Shown in pieces: positions 17,823 to 50,498 of a stretch of DNA of 64,000 nucleotides; the stretch's first letter is position 1, and every line of letters begins with the position of its first letter. This DNA comes from Agroathelia rolfsii (lineage: Eukaryota; Basidiomycota; Agaricomycetes; Amylocorticiales; Amylocorticiaceae): positions 5,084,001 through 5,148,000 of the forward strand of contig JABRWF010000002.1 of assembly GCA_018343915.1 (NCBI GenBank), given 5' to 3'. The notes beneath the pieces are model-generated. The model worked only from the letters and a program-made list of their open reading frames with translations. It was not told the DNA's origin and made no database searches. The translations under genes were made by a program, and so were the position numbers.

Positions 17823-18774
17823 TGTTACAAGACGCTCATTGTACTATAAATTTATTTAGAATTTCTTACTATTTTTCTGAATTTTTTCTGAATTTTCTCT
17901 ATTTGTTAATATATAACTTACATATTACATAAACATTATATAATCACCCTGATGACTAAGCAAGTTATGTGACTAGTCAATGCATGACTGGCCATCATGT
18001 GACAGCTAGTTATGTGATATATTATATATGTACAAGTCTAGAACATGAGCCTAGACTATGACATTATGATAGACTTATTATAATGCAATATTATACTATA
18101 CTTAGTACCCCTATGCACAGACCATGCACCAGTGCACAGACCAGGTAGAATTAGTATATAACTCTGTAGTACTCCTACCTAAAGGCCTAGATTTGTTCTC
18201 TTTGTCTTTAGGTAAGCACAAGTAGTGCTATATATTAAGTAATAACTAACATAATAAAAACTTTGTCTTCAGAGTCCCTATCTCTCACTCTCCCTTTCCT
18301 ACAAATCCATTGAGCTCTGTGCTAGAGGGTTACAAGTCAGCTCAGTGCTATTTGTAGTAGAGACGTGCTTTGTACTACCTCTGTAAGCATATATAAGACA
18401 AGTCTAGCCTATTAGTGGTGACCAATTGCATTTGCTGTATATACCATAGACATTATGCTTATTGCACTCACCCAACAAAAGCTATATGCCTAGTTGGTTA
18501 GGGTTAAGATACCTCTACCTATATCTATATACACAAGACAACTTGTGTTTCAACTATAGGCCTTGCTGGAAAGTATTTCTACTTGGAGTATAGCTTAGTG
18601 ATAGAAGAACTTAAGTTTGCATAAGAATAGAAACTGGGCACCAAGAAGTGTACACCCCTGCATCCCAAGCTCTGGGAAGTATAAAACAGGCATTACTACC
18701 TACCCTGTACCTTACAGGGGTTACTGTGAGCCTTGGTTGAGTTTTGGTGGCAAGATTTAGGTGTGCTCTTGATA
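17823..18774 (+). mobile_element. 5' LTR of gypsy element 1
   Basis: 952 bp, TGTTACAAGACGCTC to GTGCTCTTGATA. TATATAA at 18155-18161, 11-nt leader AGATTTGTTCT at 18189-18199 (34 nt from the TATA start), intron-like segment 18212-18272 (GTAAGC, branch ACTAAC, CTTCAG). Confidence 0.92.
18212..18272 (+). other. intron-like segment in A 5' LTR leader
   Basis: 61 nt: donor TTTAG|GTAAGC, branch-like AACTAAC, acceptor TTTGTCTTCAG|AG. The exon end TTTGTCTTTAG and intron end TTTGTCTTCAG are near-identical direct repeats. It lies downstream of the putative priming sequence. Confidence 0.65.
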
Positions 18775-18776
18775 TT

Positions 18777-18787
18777 AGAACAAATCT
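18777..18787 (+). promoter_or_regulatory. self-priming primer-binding site, gypsy element 1
   Basis: AGAACAAATCT starts 2 nt after the 5' LTR end and is the exact reverse complement of the leader 11-mer AGATTTGTTCT (18189-18199). No tRNA-type TGG site is visible after the LTR. The same layout occurs at 50488-50498 and 31069-31079. Confidence 0.75.
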
Positions 18788-20241
18788 CCCCTTTCTGCAC
18801 TAGTTGCTTTGTGCACTAGAGGTGGTGTAGTAAGCCACATTATTTTGAGCAAAAAACTATTACTGTAGAAAATTATTAGACTACCACGGGCAATTTACAT
18901 ATAAAAGTAGTAGTCTTTATTTTCAAATATTTCTTATTCTTAGGAGTATTCTTGGCTAGATTGAAAGTAGTATTAGTATCCACAGTTACATTGGTTTTTT
19001 CAAGCTATTAAAGGGAACATCACCTAAGTGGATAGATAAAAAAGACTCCGGTTGCTACAAGTAGCCTAAGATAAGAAAATACATTTAGTAAAAATAGGCC
19101 TAGCTCAAAGGGCAATAAAAACTTTTTACACAAAATCATCTTGGGAGTCTCTAGTAATTACTATCAAGCTTACCCACTATTTCACACCTAGACTATAACC
19201 CTAGTCAAACCCCAGAGGAAGAAAGTAGTAAAGACACCTCTTTAGAAGAGTATAAATCCTCCAATGAAGAAAACCCCACTTTCCTGCCTCTATTCCCCTT
19301 TGCACAAGTATCTGCCCTCCCTACCCCTTTCACCCTATATGCACAATCTCCTATGGCTAAACAACCCTAACTCTGTACCCTAGTTACCAACATGAAACTA
19401 TTGCAAATGTTATTGGCAAACCAAACCACTATAATGCAATAGATCCAGAACCAACAAGGATCTACAGCTAAACCTAAAGAAATTGGACATCCACCCCCCA
19501 CATTTAATGGATAATAGATTAACTTCCACCCATTTGTCCAAAAGTTCCAAGCTCACCTTGAACTCAACCCTAGGGTATATGTAACAGAGGAAGAAAAGGT
19601 CAAGTAACTCTTGGGTTTAATGGTGGATAGTGCAATAGTGTAGTCTGGCCTATGGCATGATGAGATAAAGTAAGCAGGCAAAGGACAGAGAGCAGAAGGA
19701 CTAGTAATGTTTGCTGAAGTTCTTCAAAGCTTCAAAACACTATTTGGAGCTTTTGATGAAAAGGTTGCAGCAAGAGACCAGCTGCAGAACCTCAGGCAAG
19801 GGTCTACCTCTACAAGGAATTTTGGGATAGTGTTCATGCTACTAGGAAGGAGAACTAGGTTATTGTCATGAGATGGAAATTTTGCCCGTATAGTAATCAC
19901 ACAATCACACAAAATTTTAATGGCAGGGGGGGTGGTAAAAGTGCCACTCAAGCTTAGCAATAATAGACTTTGATCCCGGGTCAGGGACTCCTAGAACACC
20001 AGGTGTGTGAGACCTGTTAGCGTGCTTCGGATACAGCCAAGAAATCACGTGGAACGTTCACGTTATTCTTGTCTGGACGGGGTTGCAAATAGGGTTTGGA
20101 GGCCGCTACGCAATGGCTTCCCGAAGTAGTTTATTGCTTACTTGTTCAGAAGTTTGTTCGTGCAAAAAGGTAAAGAAACTGCTCTTCGTGTGTGATCGTC
20201 ACTCACACCTTCTCAGACCGCGGGAGTCCGAGGGAACGGGT

Positions 20242-20252
20242 AGCTTCGACCT
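20242..20252 (-). promoter_or_regulatory. self-priming primer-binding site, family S
   Basis: Two nt outside the S LTR end (20255), the minus strand reads AGGTCGAAGCT. This is the exact complement of the 11-nt leader AGCTTCGACCT inside the same LTR (20615-20625, minus strand). The sequence differs from that of family A, but spacing and complementarity are the same. Confidence 0.75.
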
Positions 20253-20544
20253 AATGTCAAGGGTACTCTTGACTGTGTAAGGACGTTTGGGCTCGGTGTG
20301 CCTACTTTGTCTTTGTACAATCTCGGGCACACTCTTAACACTAACTCAAAGTACCTAAACTAAATAATTTTCCCACGCACGGATACCCTTTCTTATTGGG
20401 GTTCGTACAGGTACTCTCTTACTTAGTTTACGGGGGCTTCACGCGTATGAACACACAAGTCTTTGTGGGGATTTGCACCGCCACCAGTTAAGGAGAAAGG
20501 GGGAGAAGCTAGGACGGGTAGGCTAGGCCTAAAGTACGAATACC

Positions 20545-20602
20545 CTGAAGGCGAAGTTTTTATTAGTAATCTACTTTAAGAAATACAAACTTAATTACTT
20601 GC
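20545..20602 (-). other. GC-AG intron-like segment in young S LTR
   Basis: 58 nt on the minus strand: donor CGCCTTCAG|GCAAGT, branch-like TACTAAT, acceptor CTTCGCCTTCAG|GG. The 12-mer CTTCGCCTTCAG ends both the exon and the intron. TATAAAG starts at 20660, the leader 11-mer is at 20615-20625. Confidence 0.7.
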
Positions 20603-21190
20603 CTGAAGGCGAAGAGGTCGAAGCTGGGGCCTTCAGGACAAGTTACATGCTTTCTTTATACTACTATGGAAAGGTCCGTGCGCAGCCTTAGTGGTCTGTG
20701 CGCAAGCGGAATAGAAGCGGAAAGGAGGCTATGCAGGGGAAGAATGTTTTGCCTAACTCCAACGGGCATCCGTGTGGAGCTCCTTGCGGAGTGAAACCGG
20801 TATTCGTTAGGAATTATTCAGGGAAAGAAGGTTGTACTTCTTAGGCTGTGCGTAATGATGAAATGGAAGGCGCACAGCCCCGAGATTACTCCTGTGACGT
20901 GCGGCTTGGAACACGTGAGGGCCAATCAGGTGACCACAGCACTGCCCACAGTCCACGCCCTTAAAGGGTAATTTATTTAGAAAAATAAAGAAAGGAACAA
21001 AGAAAATGATAAAGACAAGAGAAATATTAGTCCAAATATTACAAGAAATATACCGAAAAATCGGCAAAATTTCCATCTCATGACAGTTATCTAATAATGA
21101 TCTCAGAGAAAAGTACCTAGAAAGGATGAATGTCAAACTTAGACATATCATTATAGGTTGGGATAGAGATATATCCACACTCCAACTTTT

Positions 21191-21982
21191 TGTCAAGGGT
21201 TCACCCTCTTGACCTTATTGCAAAGTACCGCGAACGCAAGTTTTCCCAGAGACACCTAATCCCTTATCTATTGGGGCAGGTGTACGGTACTCTTGGCTTA
21301 CGTTCACTCGTGCGTCACTCCTTGTATTTATAACTACTTTTACTTAGGCTTCATGCCTCTTTATACTTTGTCTTAGTAAGACTACCACTAAGCTTCACAC
21401 TTAGTGATAGAATGAAGAGTGAATGGGGGCGATGCACTAGGCTAGGCCTTAAAGATGAACCCTGAAGGCGAAGATTTAATTAGTTAACTTATTGGGGATA
21501 CAGAACTGGGTTGTTACTTACCTAAAGGCGAAGAGAACAAAGCTAAGCCTCCAGGTAAGAACTACATGCACTATTTATATGATTTCAGAATGGTCCGTGC
21601 TGTGCTAGCAAGGCTATGCCACAGTGGAGTTAGAAGTTTTTAAAATATCACATGCGGGGGAGAACATTTACCCTAGCTCCGACGGGCAACCGTGCGGAAC
21701 ACCGTAGAACGGAGTAGAACCGGTATCTGCCAGGAATTGTTCAGTGAGCAGAATGTTCTGGAATTCCAGGCTGTGCGTCTGATGGTTGAACGTTAAAAGG
21801 CACACAGCCTTGTTACCTAATCCTGTAGCGCAGCACTTAGACACATGAGGGCCAGTCACGGGCTCCGCATTGCCTACAGCCTACGCCCTGAGGGGTAAAA
21901 AAGGAAAAAAAACAACAAAATAAGAAGAAAGATTGTAGTCCGAATAATACAGAGAAATGCCGAAAATTTCCAACTCATGACA
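21191..21982 (-). mobile_element. solo LTR family S, young
   Basis: 792 bp, TGTCAAGGGTTCACC to TTTCCAACTCATGACA, exact TSD CTTTT at 21186-21190 and 21983-21987. On the minus strand TATAAATA (21579-21572), the leader 11-mer AGCTTTGTTCT (21544-21534) and a 60-nt GT-AG intron-like segment (21521-21462) can be read. CpG content is high for this region. Confidence 0.92.
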
Positions 21983-49533: not shown

Positions 49534-50485
49534 TGTTACAAGTCAATCCATGTACTATAAATTTATTTAGAATTTCTTATTATTTTTCCAAATTTTCCCT
49601 GATTTTTCTTGATTTTTTGGTATGTAATATGTATATTATATAAGTGGATATTACATAAGTACCCTGATGACTAAGCAAGTCATGTGACTAGTCATCATAT
49701 AACCAGCCATTATGTGACCACTAGTCATATGACATATTATGTAAGTAAAGCCTAGAGTATAGGTCTAGACTATAACATCATTATAGATTTATTATGATGT
49801 GATATCACATCATACTTAGCATTACTGTGCATAGACCATGTACCAAGTATACAGACCAGGTGGAATTAGTATATAACCCTGTAGTGTCTCTACCTAAAGA
49901 CCCCAGATTTGTTCTCTTTATCTTTAGGTAAGTATGGTAGTACTTTGTATTAAATAGTTGACTAATATAATAAAAACTTTGTCTTCAGAGCCTATCTCTT
50001 TCCCCTCCCCTCTCAAATCCTCTCTACTCTATGCTAGGAGGTTATAAGCATGCTCTATGCTGCTTATAGAAGAGACATGCTTAGTACTCTTTCTGTGTAT
50101 GCACATAAAACAGGTCTAGCCCTAGTAGTGACTATTTATGTCTGCAATAACACAATATACATAGTACTCAGTGTACTCAAGCAAGTAAAGGCTCTGCCCT
50201 GCACTTGTTGAGGTTAAGATACCCTAACACCTACTTGTATATACAAGAACACTAGTGTCTCAACAATAGCCTTTACTTGAAAGTCTAGCAGACTTGGAGT
50301 AAAGCTTAGGGATTGATGAGCTCTGGTGTGAGTAACAATAAGAACAGTGCATAGGGAAGTATACACCCTTGCATCTTAAGCCTTAGGAGAAGTAAAATAA
50401 CTATTACTGGTTACCTTGTATCTTAGAGGGGTTTTTGTAGGCATTAGTTAAGTTTTGGTGACAAGAGTCAGATGTACTCTTAATA
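49534..50485 (+). mobile_element. 5' LTR of gypsy element 3
   Basis: 952 bp, TGTTACAAGTCAATCC to GTACTCTTAATA. TATATAA at 49870-49876; leader AGATTTGTTCT at 49905-49915; intron-like segment begins at about 49928. Confidence 0.92.
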
Positions 50486-50487
50486 TT

Positions 50488-50498
50488 AGAACAAATCT
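50488..50498 (+). promoter_or_regulatory. self-priming primer-binding site, gypsy element 3
   Basis: AGAACAAATCT, 2 nt after the LTR, exact complement of the leader at 49905-49915. Confidence 0.75.

Follow-up and report, generated by a model that had tools for sequence, protein, structure and literature searches.

Matched leader and primer-binding 11-mers in LTR retrotransposon families of Agroathelia rolfsii point to self-priming of the Tf1 type

The window analyzed here, a stretch of 64,000 nucleotides from the Agroathelia rolfsii genome (C2:5084001-5148000), is rich in repeats and has the appearance of nested LTR retrotransposons. One LTR in it, of a family designated S, carries an 11-mer whose exact complement stands just outside that same LTR, at the place of a primer-binding site (PBS), and the question that this locus raises is whether such elements prime reverse transcription from the start of their own RNA. 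Self-priming with a primer cut from the RNA start has been known since the 1990s, and an earlier note on this DNA had proposed it for S. The landmarks on which that proposal was built all check at their coordinates, as follows, and the genome searched for their counterparts comprises 37.7 Mb in 8 contigs.

20255-21085, minus strand: S-family LTR, 831 bp, TG...CA, reading TGTCATGAG...CTTGACA
20654-20660, minus strand: TATAAAG, 35 nt before the leader, counted start to start (first T to leader start)
20615-20625, minus strand: leader 11-mer AGCTTCGACCT, the presumed RNA 5' end, with a presumed transcription start, and the presumed self-primer
20253-20254, minus strand: TT spacer between LTR and PBS
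20242-20252, minus strand: PBS AGGTCGAAGCT, exact complement of the leader AGCTTCGACCT, 2 nt outside the LTR

The leader and the PBS form the longest exact complement between the S LTR, whose 3' end reads ...TTGACA at 20255, and the first 60 nt outside it. In 300 dinucleotide shuffles of the LTR, the longest complement averaged 7.2 nt and never exceeded 10, against the 11 observed; and when the PBS was scanned over 821 LTR positions, there was a single 11/11 match, with the runner-up at 8/11. The self-priming design proposed before is the best reading of S. The leader is taken as the RNA 5' end because of the TATA at 35 nt; the leader sites of all five LTR families considered below (S, A, H, T, and W) follow a TATA, but a TATA near that distance was a condition of the search. 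In the Tf1/sushi group the PBS is complementary to the element's own RNA 5' end, and the same complementarity is found here over 11 nt, with the RNA 5' end placed by the TATA. When the RNA from leader to PBS was folded without constraint, the folds contained the pairing (10 or 11 pairs) in 11 of 16 elements and lacked it in 5, the window copy among them.

The S copy in the window is not a full element. It is a 1,222-bp aberrant insertion (19864-21085) with an inverted LTR end, made up, in order, of the LTR, about 373 nt that include the spacer and PBS and can be aligned with the untranslated 5' region present in other S copies, and an inverted stretch of 23 nt. Its boundaries are these:

19864-19886, minus strand: the first 23 nt of the S LTR in inverted orientation, copied exactly, at the far end of the aberrant insertion
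21086-21090: target-site duplication, 5 bp, GTTAT on the plus strand
19859-19863: the other copy of the target-site duplication, 5 bp, GTTAT on the plus strand

Comparison with intact elements shows that GGCAA at the junction is shared with the LTR start (microhomology). Among 10 exact LTR starts in the window and in loci L031-L050, this is the sole such inverted pair within 3 kb. The insertion looks like a template-switched cDNA, which integrase would have accepted although both of its ends were U3 ends.

Full-length S copies are located elsewhere in the genome. S loci were collected as the best matches to the S LTR together with chosen surroundings, and 21 further LTR copies obtained in this way align with the window LTR end to end at 77-90% identity. 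Where S-like LTR copies have an intact 3' end (22 copies), TT and a partner 11-mer lie 2 nt outside in 6 (five at 11/11, one at 10/11), and 15 of the remaining flanks score 0-4 of 11, as expected for 3' or solo LTRs; the flank of L042, at 4/11, retains the first five PBS letters only. Four of the five S elements with two LTRs have the PPT AAGGGGGTAA before the 3' LTR, and L033 has the one-base variant AAGAGGGTAA. The 5-bp target duplications are exact for L031-L034 and one base off in L035. Long open pol frames run to 1,209 aa in L032 and 1,182 aa in L034, and that of L032, the one S element scanned for domains, holds in order RVP_2, RVT_1, RT_RNaseH, Integrase_H2C2, rve, SH3_Tf2-1, and Chromo. 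The chromovirus arrangement of PR-RT-RNase H-integrase with a C-terminal chromodomain is found in L032, and TG...CA LTRs, a PPT, and a short target duplication, also chromovirus traits, are found in the S elements. S, the family whose proteins were scanned, consists of Ty3/gypsy chromoviruses. In pol, the S2 copies L043-L045 are 81-85% identical to S, whereas identity to S is 62% in W and 55% in A, whose pols were assigned by position downstream of their PBS; on these identities the S, A, and W families appear related by descent. Most of the 120 matches listed are unnamed; those with a name include Phellinidium pouzarii at 50%, Agaricus bisporus at 49%, and a fish at 39%. In a search for gag homologues, 7,995 candidates were scored and not one reached E <= 0.001.

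Other LTRs in the window carry leaders of other types:

21534-21544, minus strand: H-type leader AGCTTTGTTCT in a solo LTR with its 3' end near 21191; no PBS after this copy
18189-18199, plus strand: A-family leader AGATTTGTTCT
18777-18787, plus strand: A-family PBS AGAACAAATCT, 11/11 with the leader at 18189
49905-49915, plus strand: A-family leader AGATTTGTTCT
50488-50498, plus strand: A-family PBS AGAACAAATCT, 11/11 with the leader at 49905

The LTR at 21191 had been read as a solo S copy. At 68% identity to S in the matched part, it belongs to a separate family, which has its own matched PBS elsewhere. Moreover, the S and A leaders (AGCTTCGACCT vs AGATTCGTTCT) differ at positions 3, 8, and 9 only, that is, at 3 of 11 positions and not at the four once counted.

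Does each leader type go with its own PBS across the genome? The PBS pattern CATTAGNNCNAANCT, with the TT spacer required, occurs at 232 sites, while its reversed control occurs at 13; a form that has T at PBS position 5 occurs at 43 sites, and its reversed pattern at 0, which gives 275 candidate PBS sites for both patterns. Fifty-six of them were checked against the leader lists, 42 from 100 listed places of the 232-site pattern and 14 from the 43. Among the places listed, a leader lies within 800 nt upstream for 31 of the 56 (19 S with S, 10 A with A, and 2 H with H), and none is crossed, although a crossed S leader was detectable only on C1, to 1.17 Mb on the plus strand and 0.76 Mb on the minus strand, a range that takes in 4 of the 10 A pairs and neither of the two H pairs. 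The remaining 25 PBS have no leader among the places listed, part of which is owed to the strict patterns and to leader lists limited to about 50 places per strand. The H leader AGCTTTGTTCT implies the PBS AGAACAAAGCT, and there are 2 such among the 100 listed places, both with the leader 356 nt upstream. Ten H leader places were listed in all; 8 have no implied PBS among the listed sites, and two of the 8 are found 6-7 kb downstream from the H pairs, as 3' LTRs would be. For T leaders, S-type PBS were found at 461 and 478 nt (2 pairs, from 17 of 92 T-leader places). T and W do not constitute a primer type of their own; they share that of S. The TT spacer recurs, as the note had it, though TT was required in the 232-site pattern.

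When 16 leader/PBS pairs were compared letter by letter, 11 stood at 11/11 and 5 at 10/11, with the mismatch always at a CpG; these pairs had been preselected for a partner of at least 7/11, and hence the S series (6 of 22 partnered, 15 at 0-4) is the less biased count. Rare 11-mers that the PBS pattern also picked up, such as AGGGCTAAACT, were set aside, their number being within that of the reversed control (13). The proposal that different families have different, internally matched 11-mers is supported: three primer types (S, A, and the hybrid H) each track their own PBS, and a PBS mismatched to its own leader, the outcome that would have told against the proposal, did not occur as a crossed pair within the limits just given.

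By analogy with Tf1 of Schizosaccharomyces pombe, S, A, H, T, and W are very probably self-primed LTR retrotransposons of the Tf1 type. The exact 11-nt pairing, its position, and the type-by-type matching support this, as do, for S, the domains, the PPT, and the target duplications. In Tf1, according to the available portion of PMC7175516, the first 11 bases of the RNA are complementary to the PBS and the cut falls between bases 11 and 12, and since the 11-nt leader/PBS match here is as described there for Tf1 self-priming, the case is new but the mechanism is a known one. The likeness to Tf1, as far as the available parts of the sources go, extends from the 11-nt complement between the presumed RNA 5' end and the PBS beyond the 5' LTR to the Ty3/gypsy pol with its chromodomain (PMC7175516, PMC10085805, PMC4600332); unlike Tf1, these are other families in another host, and gag and pol are in different frames in the copies examined here. 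The available excerpts describe self-priming as a common feature of the Tf1/sushi group (PMC10085805), propose it for Tj1 (PMC4600332), and predict it for most Tcn1-clade plant elements (PMC6317226). The elements described here would thus share self-priming with a group that includes Tj1, Tosmo1-3, and Tcry1, with the moss and club-moss Tcn1 clade nearby. In contrast to those Tf1/sushi reports, a single genome here has three or more primer types along with five LTR families, and matching can therefore be counted within one host.

The transcription start, cleavage, and priming are pictured by analogy with Tf1. Transcription would begin at the A of the 11-nt leader, and the RNA 5' end would fold back to pair with the PBS, which stands 2 nt outside the LTR. 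A cut by RNase H after nucleotide 11 would free the 11-mer to prime the minus strand; once transfer to the 3' R region has taken place, the 3' LTR copy would supply the leader anew. Plus-strand DNA would presumably copy the attached primer, and a changed leader would in this way rewrite its own PBS.

Such linked change can be looked for at position 6, within S-type PBS on C1 below 3.6 Mb and with wider patterns, where 33 of 43 PBS have a listed leader and 10 do not. The leader/PBS combinations at this position are T/A in 10, T/G in 3, C/A in 2, and C/G in 18 (Fisher p = 0.00016), a p-value that overstates independence, since the copies fall into few sublineages (leader-to-PBS distance of about 338 and 380 nt), on counts in which some TG leaders may be missed, the TG-leader list having demanded a downstream motif and the CG and CA lists a TATA. 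Within the limits of the TG list, a TG leader goes with a TG PBS in 0 of 13 cases and with a CA PBS in 10 of 13; unlinked CpG decay would often yield the former. Positions 6-7 form a CpG, and part of the C/T and G/A differences found there look like decay, yet T:A at position 6 also moves as a pair. Decay is in evidence between paired LTRs as well: in seven elements (L031-L035, L044, and L045), every one of the 86 LTR-LTR differences is a transition and 35 lie in CpG, a pattern suggestive of CpG decay plus RIP-like mutation, and some single-base matches and mismatches at CpG are accordingly to be put down to decay. L035 was not used to argue for a compensated T:A pair, since its LTRs differ by 48 transitions; the claim for position 6 rests on the counts above. 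The PBS AGGTTGAAGCT with the leader AGCTTCAACCT was likewise considered as a further co-varied state and is a weak candidate (position 7: A/T 2, A/C 1, G/T 4, G/C 26; p = 0.08). In addition, 6 of 11 C1 sites with this PBS variant, which occurs for example at C1 519549-519563 and 588816-588830, have no listed leader; the leaderless sites may come from an additional family or from one that is more decayed.

Could the PBS be paired with a host tRNA or tRNA fragment, the match to the LTR being incidental? It does lie directly behind the LTR, which is the usual position for tRNA priming, and the S leader contains TTCGA, which we take to resemble the tRNA T-loop. But the PBS does not start with TGG, the complement of the tRNA CCA end, the A-type leader has no TTCGA, and the PBS changes with the LTR leader across three types and again at position 6, as it would not if a fixed host tRNA were the partner; priming by tRNA is exceedingly improbable. 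The all-transition differences between LTRs bear rather on another account, in which one ancestor had an accidental match and its decay mimics co-variation. Both leader and PBS hold a CpG, and the families appear to share descent (pol S-A 55%, S-W 62%), as that account would have it. The type differences at positions 3, 8, and 9, however, include transversions (C/A, A/T), on both sides of the pair, and symmetric decay should give TG leaders a PBS with TG as often as CA, where within the limits of the lists the cases are 0 and 10 of 13; a shared repeat in decay is thus very improbable too.

A further notion is that selection acting on either side is all that maintains the pairing and that the primer is not copied into the PBS, which we regard as possible though somewhat unlikely. 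The CpG mismatches in decayed copies (5 of 16 pairs at 10/11) imply that mismatched states persist after insertion, and selection on replicating copies would maintain the match. If the primer is copied, however, a change of the leader alone carries the PBS with it, a simple account of T:A at position 6, seen with 10 of 13 TG leaders. The matched pairs had been offered as strong evidence for selection on pairing, a claim that goes too far: a primer copied into the plus-strand PBS would match anyway, and hence matching alone is not evidence of selection. Co-variation may result from replication, as a side effect, no less than from selection, and nothing in the present data separates the two.

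Around the leader itself, each of the five families has an inverted repeat, with a core CCTGAAG / CTTCAGG and extensions that vary by family, for example CCCTTACCTGAA/TTCAGGTAAGGG in W. In the window S copy its arms are:

20629-20637, minus strand: U3 arm CCTGAAGGC of the leader-flanking inverted repeat
20602-20610, minus strand: R arm GCCTTCAGG of the leader-flanking inverted repeat

When arms were swapped among 80 leader sites (72 distinct; 3 of 83 were dropped for lack of the surrounding motif, and H is represented by 2 sequences), pairing within a family averaged -21.1 kcal/mol, compared with -16.3 across families, the best of 120 family permutations. There are exceptions: in H and A, the R arm of W is a better partner for the U3 arm than the family's own R arm is, and in T, W, and A the U3 arm of H outdoes the family's own. 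The test stands alone, since the stems of the families are out of register in the MAFFT alignment and no pair count was possible there. As the two arms lie in U3 and R, respectively, the RNA 5' end has no U3 arm, and only the 3' LTR copy can form a local hairpin in RNA. That the repeat is an RNA element of self-primed retrotransposons is possible but unlikely; if true, it could mark the RNA 3' end, serving 3'-end processing or keeping the second leader copy from the PBS, or alternatively it could pair the RNA 5' end with the 3' end for strand transfer. The available part of PMC5445492 terms a hairpin fundamental for Tf1 and does not place it at the U3/R border. The repeat is a concrete and checkable feature of which we found no description or mention in the available parts of the self-primer literature that treats hairpins or inverted repeats, a set apart from the classic Tf1 papers.

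Two hairpins lie downstream of the PBS in the window copy:

20190-20208, minus strand: hairpin 44-62 nt past the PBS start, with compensatory changes among 11 S-type copies
20212-20232, minus strand: hairpin just past the PBS, 6 of 7 pairs of which never vary

In the alignment of the 11 S-type copies, both sides have changed in 5 of 6 pairs of the first hairpin, and the second, with 6 of 7 pairs invariant, says little for or against a helix. For the two helices jointly, the covariation score was attained in 0 of 500 shuffles, the count of pairs changed on both sides in 27 of 500, and further pair types in 457 of 500. In the pretzel of the Tf1/sushi group, two more duplexes join the flanks of the PBS to the LTR downstream of the leader. 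A search here for perfect Watson-Crick runs between the stretch from 25 nt after the leader and the 160 nt after the PBS gave runs of 5-6 nt, which did not rise above shuffles in any of the 16 elements.

The finding adds cases to established self-priming and not a mechanism. Its value lies in a natural test set within one genome, which comprises, besides 275 candidate PBS sites, three types of primer and five LTR families related to each other, and which allows one to ask whether the PBS follows the leader by copying or by selection.
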